Positions 20,463-54,633 of a stretch of DNA of 64,000 bases are shown here, one piece after another; the first letter of the stretch is position 1; each line of letters opens with the position of its first letter. This stretch comes from Chitinophagaceae bacterium (lineage in GTDB: Bacteria; Bacteroidota; Bacteroidia; Chitinophagales; Chitinophagaceae): NCBI GenBank assembly GCA_022843585.1, contig JALHNJ010000001.1:1426001-1490000 (forward strand). The letters run 5' to 3'. A program made the position numbers and the translations under genes. The notes under the pieces were generated by a model. It worked only from the letters and a program-made list of their open reading frames with translations, ran no database searches and was not told the origin of the DNA.

Positions 20463-20562
20463 TGGGAAAGATAGGAAAAAAAGAATTTGCTACAGTATAA
20501 CAAACAGCAGATTAGAGGGTTTAGGGGATTGTTACAAAGTTGACCAAAACGGTTGTTTTGTT

Positions 20563-20599
20563 CGTTATATGTATCTGCTGAAAGTTTACATTATTCACA
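20563..20599 (-). promoter_or_regulatory. bipartite promoter motif, variant copy, facing the permease
   Basis: Minus-strand box A TGTGAATAATGTAA (20586-20599), 16 bases, box B TATAACG (20563-20569; 5 of 7 match to TGTAACA). Spacing identical to the other copies. About 100 bases upstream of the permease ATG. Confidence 0.5.
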
Positions 20600-20698: not shown

Positions 20699-21259
20699 TT
20701 GAAATTGCACATAAAAAATATGGTCTGCATCCGCTGCAAAATAGTAGTGAAGGATGAACTGGACAAACTGGGCTTAAAGTACCGGACCGTAGAACTAGGT
20801 GAAGCAGAATTGGTAGAAAACATAACTCCGGAGATGCGGGAAAAAATCAGGACGGCATTGTTGAGGTCGGGGCTTGAGCTTATGGATGATAAGAAAAGTG
20901 TGCTGATACAAAAGATCAAAAATGTGATCATTGAGTTAGTGCATTATTCTGAAGAGCCACTTACGATTAACTTCTCCGTTTACCTGAGTGAAAAATTACA
21001 CCACGACTATACCTATCTTGCCAATCTTTTTTCCGAGGTACAGGGAACCACTATTGAACAATTCATTATTGCTCATAAAATAGAACGGGTAAAGGAATTG
21101 CTGGTCTATAATGAGCTCAATCTTACCGAAATAGCTTACTTAATGCATTATAGTGGCGTAGCACATCTTTCTGCGCAGTTCAAAAAAGTAACAGGACTTA
21201 CACCTACGCATTTTAAAAAGCTAAAGGAACTACGCCGTAACATGCTGGATGAAGTGTGA
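20699..21259 (+). CDS. AraC-type regulator with an N-terminal HMA-like metal-binding segment
   Basis: 186 residues from a TTG start; the next ATG (20720) would cut off the first strand. Residues 1-70 look like a heavy-metal-associated fold with the MxCxxC motif (MVCIRC, residues 8-13), and residues 85-180 are an AraC-type double helix-turn-helix (YTYLANLFSEVQGTTIEQFI, then GLTPTHFKKLK). I recall close relatives throughout Bacteroidota, many lacking the first Cys. Its stop codon lies inside the promoter motif for the next gene (21255-21291). Confidence 0.75.
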   Translation: MKLHIKNMVCIRCKIVVKDELDKLGLKYRTVELGEAELVENITPEMREKIRTALLRSGLELMDDKKSVLIQKIKNVIIELVHYSEEPLTINFSVYLSEKLHHDYTYLANLFSEVQGTTIEQFIIAHKIERVKELLVYNELNLTEIAYLMHYSGVAHLSAQFKKVTGLTPTHFKKLKELRRNMLDEV

Positions 21260-21291
21260 ATTATATAAGATTCTGTAGGCTTTATGTAACA
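21255..21291 (+). promoter_or_regulatory. bipartite promoter motif, strong copy
   Basis: Box A TGTGAATTATATAA (21255-21268), 16 bases, box B TGTAACA (21285-21291). Ends 32 bases before the GTG of the next gene; box A overlaps the stop codon of the AraC gene. Confidence 0.6.
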
Positions 21292-21323
21292 AAGCAGAAG
21301 ATAGAATTACGGAACTTCATTAG

Positions 21324-21644: not shown

Positions 21645-21755
21645 ATAATAAATGTTGTGATGGGACACTGTAAGGGAAAAAGAGTACAAAGAAATTGATA
21701 GCATTAGAGGGCTCTGATTAAAGTATTCATTTTTCTCGCACAGTTGGTTTTGGTT

Positions 21756-21786
21756 ATAGCTCCTGTGACTGCAGGAGCTATTTTTT
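21756..21786 (+). terminator. intrinsic terminator between membrane protein and cupin 1
   Basis: ATAGCTCCTG (21756-21765) pairs perfectly with CAGGAGCTAT (21772-21781), loop TGACTG, followed by T tract to 21786. It lies only 28 bases before the cupin start, so it ends the upstream transcript or acts as an attenuator. Confidence 0.8.
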
Positions 21787-21813
21787 AGTTTATCCTTTAA
21801 AAATCTTACCAGT

Positions 21814-22206
21814 ATGAAAAAAGAGGACTTGCCCGGAAAAGACGGACGGCCAGAGAGTAAAGTAGAAAGCAGCAATGCGGAACTGGAAAAATCAGTCGGG
21901 CATATCATTGTGGAAATAATTGAGTATATGCCAAATTCAGTAGTTATTAAAACGATTATCAGGAAGTCAACCGGTAATATAAGTGTAATGTCGTTTGATA
22001 GTGGCGAAGGGTTAACAGAAAGGAGATCTCCGTTTGACACATTTGCACAGATTATTGAAGGCCAGGCTGAAATTGTAATTGATAAAGTATCGCATTTGCT
22101 TCAATCAGGTCAGGGTATTGTTATACCGGCCCATGCATCCAATCTAATTAAACCTAACGGACGATTTAAAATGATTCAAACAATTATTAAAAGCGGCTAT
22201 GATTAA
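21814..22206 (+). CDS. small cupin-domain protein (paralogue 1 of 3)
   Basis: 130 residues. Hydrophilic N-terminus (1-28), then a cupin barrel: GHIIVEIIEYMPNSVVIKTI, SPFDTFAQIIEGQAEIVIDK, GQGIVIPAHASNLI and KMIQTIIKSGYD. The second cupin motif keeps one His (PAHASN); the first has few metal-ligand residues, so metal binding is doubtful. Close paralogues lie at 49132 and 54182. Followed 35 bases later by a lipoprotein gene, probably one operon. Confidence 0.8.
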   Translation: MKKEDLPGKDGRPESKVESSNAELEKSVGHIIVEIIEYMPNSVVIKTIIRKSTGNISVMSFDSGEGLTERRSPFDTFAQIIEGQAEIVIDKVSHLLQSGQGIVIPAHASNLIKPNGRFKMIQTIIKSGYD

Positions 22207-22820: not shown

Positions 22821-23543
22821 ATGAAGCCTGATACCACCGAAAAGACGACTGTGTTTACACCAACGATGCCAGAACAGCCGGAAGATGCTCATCATAAAGA
22901 TCCGTCGGTTTTATTTACGGCCGCCCATCTGCATGAGGTGAGAAATCCCCTGACAAATATCAACATGGCAGTTGAAGCATTAAGTTCAATGATTACCGGG
23001 GAAGAGGAAAAAATATATTTTGATATAATACTGCGATCATCCAACAGGATCAATACATTAGTTACGGATCTTATTATTCAACAGCTTAGCACTACAGATA
23101 AGATAGAGGAGTTTTCACTGCATCAACTACTTGATGAGGCACTCAGCACCATAGCTGATCGTATTACCCTTAAACAAATTTCTGTTATTAAAGAGTATGC
23201 GCCCCTCGACTATAAAGCGAAAATGGATATTGAGAAAATGAAGATCGCATTGACTAATATTATTATAAATGCTGTTTATGCAATGCAGGAAAAAACTGGC
23301 CAACTAAAGCTTATTACTACTTTTATTGGCAAGCAATTTACTTTACAGATAAAAGACAATGGTTGTGGTATTAGTCCTGCCAGCCTGGAGCATATTTTTA
23401 AACCTTATTTTACACAGAAAGTTGGTGGACTTGGAGTTGGATTGGCAGCAACCTATTCTATTCTCCAGGTTAATAATATCAAGCTAAAAGTAGAGTCAGA
23501 ACTAAATAAGGGAACTTGTTTCTTTTTGGAGTTTCCTAATTAA
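22821..23543 (+). CDS. soluble sensor histidine kinase lacking a sensor domain
   Basis: 240 residues. H box HLHEVRNPLTNI with phospho-acceptor His 38; N box NIIINAVYAM; G1 IKDNGCGIS; F box HIFKPYFTQK; G2 GGLGVGLAATY. No transmembrane or PAS domain, so the signal must come from a partner protein or cytoplasmic ligand. No response regulator is adjacent. Terminated at 23575. Confidence 0.88.
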   Translation: MKPDTTEKTTVFTPTMPEQPEDAHHKDPSVLFTAAHLHEVRNPLTNINMAVEALSSMITGEEEKIYFDIILRSSNRINTLVTDLIIQQLSTTDKIEEFSLHQLLDEALSTIADRITLKQISVIKEYAPLDYKAKMDIEKMKIALTNIIINAVYAMQEKTGQLKLITTFIGKQFTLQIKDNGCGISPASLEHIFKPYFTQKVGGLGVGLAATYSILQVNNIKLKVESELNKGTCFFLEFPN

Positions 23544-23574: not shown

Positions 23575-23608
23575 AAAGCCACCAAATAATACATTTGGTG
23601 GCTTTTTG
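23575..23608 (+). terminator. intrinsic terminator of the histidine kinase gene
   Basis: AAAGCCACCAAAT (23575-23587) pairs perfectly with ATTTGGTGGCTTT (23593-23605), loop AATAC, then T. Confidence 0.85.
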
Positions 23609-23649: not shown

Positions 23650-23778
23650 TTATATAGAAGGGGGATTAAGGGCTTTTTGTTGTTTCTTCACTTTTACTAT
23701 TTCGGTATGCCTGTAGTATAACGCAATCGTTAACAGCAATACAAATAATACGATGCGGTAAATATCATTCAATGTCAT
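23650..23778 (-). CDS. 42-residue single-pass membrane peptide
   Basis: ATG at 23778: MTLNDIYRIVLFVLLLTIAL then a basic tail (YYRHTEIVKVKKQQK). One transmembrane helix, positive-inside C-terminus. An upstream in-frame ATG (23838) overlaps promoter box B, so the short start is preferred; it is 44 bases downstream of the motif at 23823-23859. Function unknown; small membrane peptides of this size often modulate larger membrane proteins or envelope stress. Confidence 0.5.
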   Translation of the reverse strand: MTLNDIYRIVLFVLLLTIALYYRHTEIVKVKKQQKALNPPSI

Positions 23779-23822
23779 ATCAGAAATCTTTGAACAAAGA
23801 TGAGGCAATGACAATGCCAATT

Positions 23823-23859
23823 TGTTACAGCATTTCAAATATTTTTTATATTATTCACA
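23823..23859 (-). promoter_or_regulatory. bipartite promoter motif facing the 42-residue gene
   Basis: Minus strand: box A TGTGAATAATATAA (23846-23859), 16 bases, box B TGTAACA (23823-23829). Divergent from the copy at 23893; box A edges are 33 bases apart. Confidence 0.6.
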
Positions 23860-23892
23860 TTCCTTCTTTCTTATAATCCTCTATTTAAAATG

Positions 23893-23929
23893 TGTGAATT
23901 ATATAATTTTTTAATAAGTATTTGTAACA
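23893..23929 (+). promoter_or_regulatory. bipartite promoter motif facing the candidate RNA gene
   Basis: Box A TGTGAATTATATAA (23893-23906), 16 bases, box B TGTAACA (23923-23929). The sequence on the plus strand after it contains no long frame but ends in a T-tailed terminator at 24151. Confidence 0.6.
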
Positions 23930-23935
23930 CTTAAA

Positions 23936-24182
23936 AAATAAAATATTTACAATTTTATAAAATCATAACAGTGATAAATATTCTGCCTGTGCAGCATGAT
24001 TCATGGAGGTTATATTCAGTTCTGAGTTAGCTAAAATTGATTGTGCTGCAACAGCAGGCAGATATATAAAAAATTCAAAAATATTTTTATCGTTTTCTGA
24101 TTCAGTAGTACTAAAGTTGGGGACTTGATTTTTCATACACAAAGTCCTGTACCATTCCGGAATTCTCCGGGATGGTTTTTTT
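23936..24182 (+). ncRNA. candidate structured small RNA of about 245 nt
   Basis: Bracketed by a promoter motif (23893-23929) and an intrinsic terminator (24151-24182). Internal pairing: CTGCCTG and TGCAGCA (23983-23996) against TGCTGCA (24044-24050) and CAGGCAG (24055-24061), a 14-bp stem with a 4-base bulge; GGACTT (24121-24126) against AAGTCC (24142-24147); then the terminator hairpin. A 41-codon frame (ATG 24003 to TGA 24128, starting MEVIFSSELAK) lies inside and could make it a small mRNA instead. The 5' end is inferred from the motif. Confidence 0.45.
24151..24182 (+). terminator. orphan intrinsic terminator ending the candidate RNA
   Basis: ACCATTCCGGA (24151-24161) pairs with TCCGGGATGGT (24166-24176), one T-G pair, 4-base loop, followed by a run of T. 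The T tail is only on the plus strand, where no other gene precedes it after 23608. Confidence 0.8.
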
Positions 24183-24215
24183 ATTCTTTAATGATAGCGT
24201 AACGTAAGGGTATAT

Positions 24216-24407
24216 TTATTCCTTTGTTTTTGGCACCGGGTCTTTCTTAATAATTCCTGCCGATTTTTTTTCGGTTGTTGTTTTTGGAGTAATATTTTTT
24301 CTGCTGGCAGGCAGGTGTGGAAAGCCGGGAAAATCCTGGTCAATATGCTGGTCTGGATTCTGCTGTACTTCTTCTTCCTTTGTAATAGCTTTTGTTTTTT
24401 TAGACAT
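24216..24407 (-). CDS. 63-residue hydrophilic protein, unknown function
   Basis: Strongly charged, Lys/Thr/Pro-rich (MSKKTKAITKEEEVQQNPDQ, then HIDQDFPGFPH). No helix long enough for a membrane. A second frame (24188-24433) overlaps on the same strand but is less protein-like. Low-complexity basic proteins of this sort are common beside stress genes in Chitinophagaceae. Existence moderately supported by composition and the acidic/aromatic DQDFPGFP core. Confidence 0.45.
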   Translation of the reverse strand: MSKKTKAITKEEEVQQNPDQHIDQDFPGFPHLPASRKNITPKTTTEKKSAGIIKKDPVPKTKE

Positions 24408-24694
24408 ATATAAATGCTTTTAGTATAGGACATAGTGCAATAATGTTGCCTGCCTGGAGAATCTTGTTTTTAAAGCAAAAATTATTTCATACCGATAGTA
24501 ATTATCTGCAACACTACTAAGTGGTTGTCGCGGCATTATTTAAACTGTGTATTATTTTACCCAATAATAGTAATGAAGAGTTAACATGGGAGTCGATGTT
24601 TACTTAATAGCTTTACCTGTTAGTATCGTTGGCATTAGGTTTGAAACTACTTTCTTACGATCATTTAATTTTCCGTTCATCCGAAATATATTTT

Positions 24695-52927: not shown

Positions 52928-53989
52928 TTATCTTAAATACAATTCAAGTTCTACTCTTCTGTTTAATGCCCTTGCTGTTGAATTTCCATTAGAACCTGCA
53001 GGTCTTGTTTTACCATATCCAGTAAGTGCTATTCTGCTTTCAGCTACACCTTTGCCTGTTAAATAAGACATCACTGCATCTGCACGGCTTTGCGAAACCG
53101 TAGTTGGGTTTTTTTCCATGCCATCAGTATGACCGCCAATGCGCAAATTATAATCCGGGTATTCTTTTAAAATATTTGCTACCTCATCCAGCATTGGGTG
53201 AGAAGTGGATTTCACCAATGCATTTCCTGATTCAAACATTACACGACGGGTTGCAAATTGTAAACGCTTTGGCACTTCTTTTTTTACAACCGGACAACCA
53301 TAGTTTGAAATAACACCTATAACACCCGGGCATCTGTCATCTGCATCCAGTACACCATCTCCGTCTGTATCAGCCGGGCATCCCCATGCATCTACTTTTG
53401 TTCCTGCATTAGTAGCAGGGCATTTGTCATCCGCATCAAGCACACCATCTTTATCACTGTCGGCATCACATCCATTCACATCGGTTTTAATTCCTTTATT
53501 GGTATCCGGGCATTTATCGTTGGAGTCTGGCACACCATCACCATCTGTATCCGGGCATCCCTGGAACATATCCAGTCCTGCTGCATTCGGACATTTATCC
53601 TGCGAATCCTGGATGCCATCTGCATCACTATCAGGGCAGCCTTTAAATCTTGCATCACCGGGTACATCAGGACAACTATCGTTTGGATCGCTTACACCAT
53701 CTTTATCTTTATCCTGGCAACCGTTCATGCCAGTAGTACCAACTATAGAAGGGCATTTATCTAAATAGTCAGGCACACCATCCTTATCCGTATCAACAGG
53801 GCAACCAGTTCCATCAACCTGCACACCCGGAGGAGTGGATGGACACTTATCTCTTTTATTTTTAACCCCATCACCATCGCCATCTTTTTTCATTTCAAAT
53901 TTGGAAGGAGTTTCTTGTGCAAATAACGGAGTAGTATCTGTTGCAAATAGAAATACAAAAAATAGCGAAAGAATTTTTCTAAAGAGCAT
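52928..53989 (-). CDS. OmpA family protein with thrombospondin type-3 repeats
   Basis: 353 residues. Signal peptide ends LFAQ; Asp-rich TSP3 repeats (about 40-230: DGDGDGVKNKRDKCPSTPP, DTDKDGVPDYLDKCP and more) bind Ca2+; C-terminal OmpA domain (about 245-353: GHTDGMEKNP, RADAVMSYL, GYGKTRPAGSN, ALNRRVEL) anchors to peptidoglycan. Preceded by a strong bipartite motif (54060-54096), 71 bases before the ATG. Confidence 0.9.
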   Translation of the reverse strand: MLFRKILSLFFVFLFATDTTPLFAQETPSKFEMKKDGDGDGVKNKRDKCPSTPPGVQVDGTGCPVDTDKDGVPDYLDKCPSIVGTTGMNGCQDKDKDGVSDPNDSCPDVPGDARFKGCPDSDADGIQDSQDKCPNAAGLDMFQGCPDTDGDGVPDSNDKCPDTNKGIKTDVNGCDADSDKDGVLDADDKCPATNAGTKVDAWGCPADTDGDGVLDADDRCPGVIGVISNYGCPVVKKEVPKRLQFATRRVMFESGNALVKSTSHPMLDEVANILKEYPDYNLRIGGHTDGMEKNPTTVSQSRADAVMSYLTGKGVAESRIALTGYGKTRPAGSNGNSTARALNRRVELELYLR

Positions 53990-54059
53990 AAAGAGTTTGT
54001 TTGTGTGAAAAATAGTTTTCAGTACGTTAGGTAAAGGTTGCTTTTGTAATGAACTTAAC

Positions 54060-54096
54060 TGTTACACTCTGCGGGTTTGCAGTTATATAATTCGCA
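54060..54096 (-). promoter_or_regulatory. bipartite promoter motif facing the OmpA gene
   Basis: Minus strand: box A TGCGAATTATATAA (54083-54096), 16 bases, box B TGTAACA (54060-54066). One mismatch in box A to the consensus. Confidence 0.6.
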
Positions 54097-54181: not shown

Positions 54182-54556
54182 TTATTCTTGCTTAAAGTCT
54201 TTAATGATTGTAGTAATCATTTTAAATTGAGAATCTGCAATAAAGCAATGTGGAATATCGGCTGGAATTATTATTCCCTCGCCTAAATTAAGGTGATGTA
54301 ATTCTCTGCCAATAGTAATGCTTGCTTTGCCGTCAATGACCTGCACATAGATATCATGTTCTATTGTTTTCTCACATAATTTCTCTCCTTCATCGAAAGA
54401 AGTAGCCGTAACATTACCACTGGTTTTATTGACAACTGTTTTACTCACAATGGAATCGGGAACATATTCCACAATTTCAACAACAATATGTTTGTTGGGT
54501 CTGGGAGAATCGCTTTTGCTATTTTTGCAATTTGCGGCTGGGGTATCTGTTTGCAC
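54182..54556 (-). CDS. small cupin-domain protein (paralogue 3 of 3)
   Basis: 124 residues from a GTG start, 41 bases downstream of promoter box B; no ATG gives a comparable product. Cupin barrel: KHIVVEIVEYVPDSIVSKTV, HDIYVQVIDGKASITIGREL, GEGIIIPADIPHCFIADSQF. The most diverged of the three paralogues. Downstream of it lies the motif for the OmpA gene. Confidence 0.78.
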   Translation of the reverse strand: MQTDTPAANCKNSKSDSPRPNKHIVVEIVEYVPDSIVSKTVVNKTSGNVTATSFDEGEKLCEKTIEHDIYVQVIDGKASITIGRELHHLNLGEGIIIPADIPHCFIADSQFKMITTIIKDFKQE

Positions 54557-54596
54557 TTAATTTTTGATGTAAGTTCAGTTATCTTACAATTCTACT

Positions 54597-54633
54597 TGTT
54601 ACATAGTAGCTCAAATCTGTTGTATAATTCACA
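54597..54633 (-). promoter_or_regulatory. bipartite promoter motif facing cupin 3
   Basis: Minus strand: box A TGTGAATTATACAA (54620-54633), 16 bases, box B TGTAACA (54597-54603). Supports the GTG start at 54556. Confidence 0.6.

Follow-up and report, generated by a model that had tools for sequence, protein, structure and literature searches.

Small RNAs of the Bacteroidota are little known, and promoter scans of the sigma-70 type are ill-suited to this phylum. Class II AraC-type activator promoters, such as I1-I2 of AraC, consist of a pair of half-sites, the second of which overlaps the -33 region. In a study of Flavobacterium psychrophilum, an RNA termed Rfp18 is described and the TAnnTTTG -7 box is placed at positions -12 to -5 (PMC9723704). 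The window analyzed here is a stretch of 64,000 nucleotides (G000:C1:1426001-1490000) from a 4.49 Mb Chitinophagaceae genome. At 23962-24182, it probably contains a non-coding RNA gene of an AraC-type regulon, which would be activated by the regulator together with a divergent peptide gene and act in trans without Hfq. The gap between a histidine kinase gene and a 63-residue gene is composed of the minus-strand peptide gene and the RNA stretch. The features are as follows, with G062 and G060 denoting two genomes used for comparison.

20699 to 21259, plus strand: AraC-type regulator of 186 aa, candidate activator (Pfam HTH_18, E 2.3e-15; the motif co-occurs with its close orthologues)
22821 to 23543: histidine kinase gene, 5' neighbour of the gap
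23650 to 23778, minus strand: 42-residue membrane peptide gene, 93% identical in G062 and 64% in G060
23795 to 23859, minus strand: divergent three-part promoter serving the peptide gene (box 1 at 23846-23859, box 2 at 23823-23829, -7 box at 23795-23802)
23893 to 23906, plus strand: box 1 of the RNA promoter, TGTGAATTATATAA, exact; 0 of 14 positions changed in G062
23923 to 23929, plus strand: box 2, TGTAACA, at the -33 region; spacing as in the six window copies and relatives; 1 of 7 positions changed in G062
23950 to 23957, plus strand: -7 box CAATTTTA (class consensus CAnCTTTG, general form TAnnTTTG); spacing as in the window copies; 0 of 8 positions changed in G062
23962 to 24182, plus strand: predicted non-coding RNA of about 221 nt, with a predicted start and its end at the T-run; fold z = -6.0, and z = -4.4 for the G062 homologue
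23982 to 24062, plus strand: long bulged hairpin of 32 pairs, 31 of them kept in G062
24003 to 24128, plus strand: 41-codon frame, judged not to be a gene; start, frame and stop lost in G062
24120 to 24148, plus strand: small hairpin exposing the 15-nt loop GATTTTTCATACACA, a candidate pairing site; G062 differs at 2 of the 27 positions in 24121-24147
24151 to 24182, plus strand: intrinsic terminator with T-run; one pair broken in G062
24407 to 24216, minus strand: 63-residue gene, 3' neighbour of the gap, opposite to the RNA strand

The initial annotation had reported a strong plus-strand motif copy at 23893, and the exact sequence is present there; as the whole signal the motif falls short, since it is only the first of three promoter boxes. 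The promoter class reads TGTGAATnATRTAA, 16 nt, TRTAACA, approximately 20 nt and a Bacteroidota -7 box. The copies, aligned by eye and then by a scan, comprise TGTGAATnATATAA, 16 nt, TGTAACA, 20 nt and mostly (C/G)AnCTTT(G/A), which is a form of the Bacteroidota -7 box TAnnTTTG; the -7 box of the RNA is a weak match to TAnnTTTG. Six such promoters are located in the window, at 20599 (-), 21255 (+), 23859 (-), 23893 (+), 54096 (-) and 54633 (-), and those outside the gap are the following.

20535 to 20599, minus strand: three-part promoter directed at a transporter gene, in the interval separating that gene from the regulator
21255 to 21319, plus strand: three-part promoter of a 106-aa membrane protein gene (21324), with the third exact box 1 copy at 21255
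54032 to 54096, minus strand: three-part promoter of an OmpA-like protein gene (52928-53989)
54569 to 54633, minus strand: three-part promoter for another cupin-like gene (54182-54556) that seems to be paralogous to the one at 21814

A seventh is found elsewhere in the genome (C1:217130, minus strand), and the gene behind it presumably resembles an acyl-ACP desaturase. The motif with at most two mismatches occurs 13 times in the window compared with a mean of 5.97 in shuffled sequences, none of 100 of which reaches 13. Genome-wide, there are five exact copies and none of the pattern read backwards; one exact copy, at C1:1205417, lacks the second box. For the two-box pattern, the genome has 13 sites versus 7 in the backward control at up to three mismatches and 7 versus 3 at up to two, and the sites with at most one mismatch comprise six of the seven named promoters, that at 20599 having two mismatches.

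Because the F. psychrophilum box occupies the position given above (PMC9723704), the RNA start is placed at approximately 23962, which is 5 nt past the -7 box. With this start, box 2 lies on the -33 region and box 1 begins 30 bp further upstream. The TRTAA half-sites are 21 bp apart with the second at -33, as in the AraC pattern, which suggests class II activation. The product of the gene at 20699, or of a close paralogue, would bind boxes 1 and 2 as direct half-sites, and, from the half-site overlapping the -33 region, would help the housekeeping polymerase at the -7 box. The outcome would be divergent activation of two genes, one for the 42-residue membrane peptide and one for the ~221-nt RNA. 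The peptide (23778-23653, minus strand, nested in a longer TTG frame) had been proposed to be driven by its own motif copy, and an exact divergent copy, TGTGAATAATATAA, is indeed present at 23846-23859 (-). The two-way control node proposed for this intergenic space is supported in this genome and not as a general rule, because G060 (NFUV01000002.1) keeps the peptide and its promoter with no plus-strand promoter, no RNA and less than 100 nt to the next gene.

The claimed T-tailed terminator at 24151 is recovered as a stem at 24151-24176 with 11 pairs, 6 of them G-C, followed by a T-run to 24182, on the plus strand only. A simple scan found 6 terminator-like sites in 6.5 kb compared with a mean of 5.0 in shuffles, so the terminator alone is not significant, although it is one of the two sites with the most pairs. 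As had been stated, no known gene lies between motif and terminator, and by sequence the stretch has its own promoter and its own intrinsic terminator. An inverted repeat past the kinase gene (23575-23605) seems to provide that gene with a terminator of its own, and the one at 24151-24182 therefore need not belong to the kinase. The kinase (240 aa) matched only the HisKA and HATPase families above the cut-off, with no sensor domain found, and it diverges fast, with 80% identity to G062 versus 86–98% for eight other genes. The promoter and terminator might instead delimit a leader or attenuator of a downstream gene, since in relatives the class promoter can precede a terminator and then a gene, e.g., a cupin-like gene approximately 120–160 nt further on. 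However, the next plus-strand gene starts at 24629 (TTG) or 24698 (ATG), more than 440 nt past the terminator, and 24216-24407 is read in the opposite direction, which makes a leader highly improbable.

The bracketing by promoter and terminator thus stands, and the predicted RNA measures approximately 221 nt instead of the 240–250 nt originally expected. The region 23935-24182 folds with a minimum free energy of -70.8 kcal/mol compared with -45.2 ± 4.3 kcal/mol for shuffled sequences (z = -6.0; 0 of 200 as good). The 14-bp bulged stem initially drawn from 23983-23996 and 24044-24061 is part of a longer hairpin, with 32 pairs within 23982-24062, and the 6-bp stem at 24121-24147 is retained with a redrawn extent, 24120-24126 pairing with 24142-24148 around a loop at 24127-24141. 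The long stable hairpin would hold the RNA, which would end at its own terminator. No Rfam family reached its gathering score over the RNA, and the 22 matches of a permissive search were all below the gathering scores. A chance arrangement, in which an AT-rich gap has acquired a fortuitous hairpin or preserves the remnant of a mobile element, would suit the near-expected regional count of terminators. It is hard to reconcile with the fold z score and with a three-part promoter whose first two boxes are exact; moreover, the RNA is single-copy in the genome (E <= 0.001) and has no match in phages or plasmids. In viral contigs, a 17-mer of the RNA has seven exact matches, none of which is accompanied by the other hairpin arm in the sequence inspected; they were taken as chance. 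We regard such an origin as extremely improbable.

The only homologue of the RNA that we found is in G062 (LNFJ01000016.1), a genome of the same genus, in which promoter and terminator are kept. The initial annotation had preferred a structured RNA to a peptide and had named loss of pairing in relatives together with protein-level conservation of the 41-codon frame as one finding that would speak against it. G062 displays the opposite: 31 of the 32 hairpin pairs persist under 12 substitutions (P 0.012, simulation), and the frame is gone. The G062 hairpin is also more stable than approximately 99.9% of 4000 equally mutated copies (P 0.001). Among the pairs, one double change is kept (U-A to C-G), three single-side changes are kept and one pair is broken. 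The covariation analysis that had been called for yielded this one kept double change, which column shuffles match or exceed in 243 of 500 cases, and covariation is thin because only two genomes carry the RNA. Paired hairpin columns do not change significantly more slowly than unpaired ones (7 of 64 versus 5 of 23 changed, P 0.29).

If a small peptide were the product, the RNA would be its messenger. The 41-codon frame starts 45 nt past the -7 box, near the usual gene start of the promoter class, and tblastn aligns it to G062 at 67% over 30 residues; in addition, G062 has a 22-codon counterpart of a second frame, which starts with TTG at 24125 and comprises 25 codons. Against this, the ATG has become ATT in G062, an insertion shifts the frame, the stop is lost, and no plus-strand frame of at least 20 codons starts in the G062 hairpin. 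The frame, in which 21 of 123 positions are changed with 4 gap columns, has no Pfam match, DNA identity of approximately 83% could by itself yield such a tblastn match, and in both genomes the second frame runs past the terminator. A reading frame conserved between species, as expected of a small-protein gene, is thus not found between these two genomes, and we consider a peptide gene very unlikely. With the fold kept and the frame not kept, the comparison favours a non-coding RNA gene.

The rate of change bears on whether such an RNA would have a function. Between the two genomes, 27 of 219 positions differ within 23960-24182, compared with 36 of 154 outside the RNA when the promoter boxes are left out (P 0.007) and 23 of 80 in three hand-picked outside stretches (P 0.0014). 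When the six boxes are counted along with all other outside columns within 23779-24215, the slower change of the RNA is not significant (27 of 219 versus 38 of 212, P 0.11). For nine neighbouring genes, the divergence at fourfold sites ranges from 0.07 to 0.60, and in seven of these genes it is 0.17–0.38. A hairpin model (R1) detected the RNA in 2 of 42 genus genomes and in the own genome alone among a family sample of 244; both searches were run with stricter filters, at the cost of weak matches, and G062 is absent from the list of a same-sized (244) family sample. At the DNA level, three others of 58 genomes (own included) match, weakly, over 31–38 nt of the promoter or AU-rich parts. Judged by its distribution, the RNA is young and the promoter class older.

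This recent origin, with the RNA seen in two genomes only, would also fit a functionless leftover, in which promoter and terminator are real and what they enclose is either a by-product or a regulon gene in decay. G060 manages without the RNA, no target was found among genome-wide loop complements or window start regions, and the comparison with all surrounding columns gives only P 0.11. A leftover, however, would not be expected to change more slowly than the surroundings without promoter boxes (P 0.007), to retain its fold (P 0.012 and 0.001) or to leave boxes 1 and -7 unchanged in G062. We regard it as rather unlikely and favour a functional non-coding RNA gene.

The AraC-type gene at 20699 heads the gene cluster, and the N-terminal part of its product is short and includes a CxxC. 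When named genomes were searched with this protein, 80 of 135 loci were kept, and a promoter matrix was built from 17 copies and used with a cut-off of 22 bits. At or above this cut-off, the matrix matches at 181 places in 61 of the 80 AraC-orthologue loci. There were no matches in the reversed sequence or in 53 other loci (181 kb), and ten column-permuted matrices gave 0 on the first 40 loci versus 124 for the real matrix. Without L063 and L064 (taken as G062:C16 and G060:C2), 173 places in 59 of 78 loci remain; this removal covered these two sources of matrix seeds, the others being G008, G027, G067 and G077. Two-box sites with at most one mismatch occur in 7 of 97 genomes (own included), all of them among the 13 with an AraC match of E <= 1e-70, and in none of the 84 others; the Fisher P of 1e-7 is inflated because of shared descent among the genomes, and the E cut-off was chosen after the table had been seen. 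With at most two mismatches, the sites occur in 25 of 97 genomes, in some of which the backward control matches too. In sequence terms, these data tie the promoter class to the gene family of the regulator, and sites and regulator orthologues are found together, as in a class II AraC-type regulon.

The 198 downstream frames, picked by length, fall into groups of which the largest are a weakly cupin-like protein (20) and a 72-residue protein (18), followed by the AraC protein itself (14), a membrane protein of ~98–106 residues (14) and a histidine kinase (8). Smaller groups contain OmpA-like and small membrane proteins, as well as proteins that we take to be BON-like. For the gene in the window, the match to cupin does not reach the Pfam cut-off. 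At 57 of the 166 sites with a longest downstream frame of at least 90 residues, this frame starts 20–39 nt past the -7 box. The regulon appears to be of the stress type.

The class promoter also precedes other putative RNAs. At 21 of 201 class promoter sites, a terminator follows within 260 nt, compared with 3.0 (sd 1.6) in 20 shuffles, and 6 of the 201 have such a terminator with no frame of at least 30 codons before it among the two longest; the window RNA contains the 41-codon frame, and its site is for that reason not counted among the six. Such sites at L078 7391 (-), L074 1925 (-), L060 7432 (+) and L086 3016 (-) are candidates for additional RNAs or leaders of the regulon. The most striking case, located behind the class promoter in several genera, is a highly conserved RNA of approximately 60 nt, in which a short A/T stretch connects GGTTTTTCATAGGATATTGGA to a terminator. 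With at most one mismatch allowed, the 17-mer of this RNA is present in 163 of the 244 genomes of the family sample, frequently more than once, compared with 15 for the backward control. Among 42 distinct copies inspected, a three-part promoter of >=18 bits precedes 10, and in 33 a -7 box with at most one mismatch is located exactly 15 nt ahead of the 17-mer. In a set of 14 diverse copies, selected by hand, 6 of the 13 predicted pairs are retained even though both partners have changed, and these six all belong to the terminator stem. No Rfam match was found in nine loci, and the RNA looks like an undescribed multi-copy sRNA family. The window genome has three exact copies (C1:719327, C14:18557 and C20:2618), none with a three-part promoter by eye.

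Copies of the ~60-nt RNA are also located at L074 10708, L075 10681, L076 10944, L077 11281, L119 17581 and 7987 and in most of L143-L172, with a tandem arrangement in L148. Four loci have tandem three-part promoters approximately 200 bp apart on the plus strand (L074 10638/10842, L075 10610/10820, L076 10873/11065 and L077 11210/11425), the first before the ~60-nt RNA and the second before a long frame of 356–514 residues, which in L074 and L075 is presumably desaturase-like. A second conserved element, AGTTGGTTTTGGTTA or near it, with a terminator directly after it, lies in the window at 21742-21790 (+) between the 106-aa and cupin-like genes. Similar elements are at L063 11043, L064 11039, L058 10166 and L057 3337. 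In L057, the element follows a three-part promoter, and among the two longest frames the sole one ahead of it has 14 codons.

The ~221-nt RNA would most likely act in trans by base pairing without Hfq. Hfq, whose presence in the genome is expected for an Hfq-dependent sRNA, was not found in 42 of 42 genus genomes, whereas 5 of 14 control genomes were positive; pairing would therefore be unaided or aided by another protein. The likeliest pairing site would be the 15-nt loop at 24127-24141, in which TTTTCATACACA is unchanged in G062. Perfect complements of 12 nt of the loop occur five times in the genome, one being the RNA gene itself, compared with four for the backward control, and at the other four the ATG opens frames of 4–14 residues only. 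Duplex energies of three RNA segments against 21 start regions of the window gave a lowest P of 0.02 in 63 tests, which is nothing beyond chance; the energy calculation covered the start regions of the window, and the genome-wide search covered perfect loop complements. The window RNA does not belong to the ~60-nt CATAGGATATTGG family, as TTTTCATAGGATATTGG followed by a terminator is absent from the window with up to three substitutions. The two RNAs have TTTTCATA in common, which in the window RNA lies in the loop (24130-24137) and would be expected 0.017 times by chance, although the shared sequence was noticed only in retrospect. A broader scheme is conceivable, in which a Bacteroidota-wide, stress-like AraC-type regulon repeatedly recruits non-coding RNAs to serve as its regulatory arm, the ~60-nt CATAGGATATTGG RNA in several genera and a newly arisen ~221-nt RNA taking over its role here. 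Both display UUUUCAUA, the complement of the start-codon region UAUGAAAA, and with the regulon switched on they would accordingly lower the output of envelope or export messages in bacteria that lack Hfq. We consider this scheme distinctly unlikely as a whole.

The motif string was not found in open-access papers, in which we also found nothing on such a regulon, its promoter class or the window RNA. A 13-mer of the ~60-nt RNA had a sole match there, in a paper that, judged by its entry, concerns dragon-fruit storage. The window RNA is thus of an ordinary kind, a regulated intergenic RNA, and belongs to a regulon for which no description was found in open-access papers. What stands out is the well-defined promoter class and regulon with recurring RNA outputs. 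The stretch offers a defined RNA together with its promoter and likely activator, the promoter signature allows a phylum-wide scan for regulon members and RNA outputs, and a multi-copy conserved ~60-nt RNA without an Rfam match makes RNA action without Hfq directly testable.

Like Rfp18 (PMC9723704), the window RNA is an independent intergenic RNA with a strong predicted fold and a pairing site predicted in a stem-loop, in a phylum with the TAnnTTTG -7 box. The likeness is one of description, and Rfp18 has transcript and deletion data, whereas the window RNA is predicted from sequence. The window RNA further differs from Rfp18 in its dedicated three-part promoter, in having no target found and in its occurrence in two genomes (PMC9723704). 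It resembles the ~60-nt RNA, copies of which are behind the three-part promoter, and both hold TTTTCATA ahead of the terminator; the ~60-nt RNA has another length and sequence and occurs in 163 of 244 genomes versus two. The promoter of the window RNA resembles AraC I1-I2 in its TRTAA half-sites 21 bp apart, the second of which overlaps the -33 region; it differs in its -7 box of the Bacteroidota type, in the short, CxxC-containing N-terminal part of its candidate regulator and in that binding by this regulator is a prediction.
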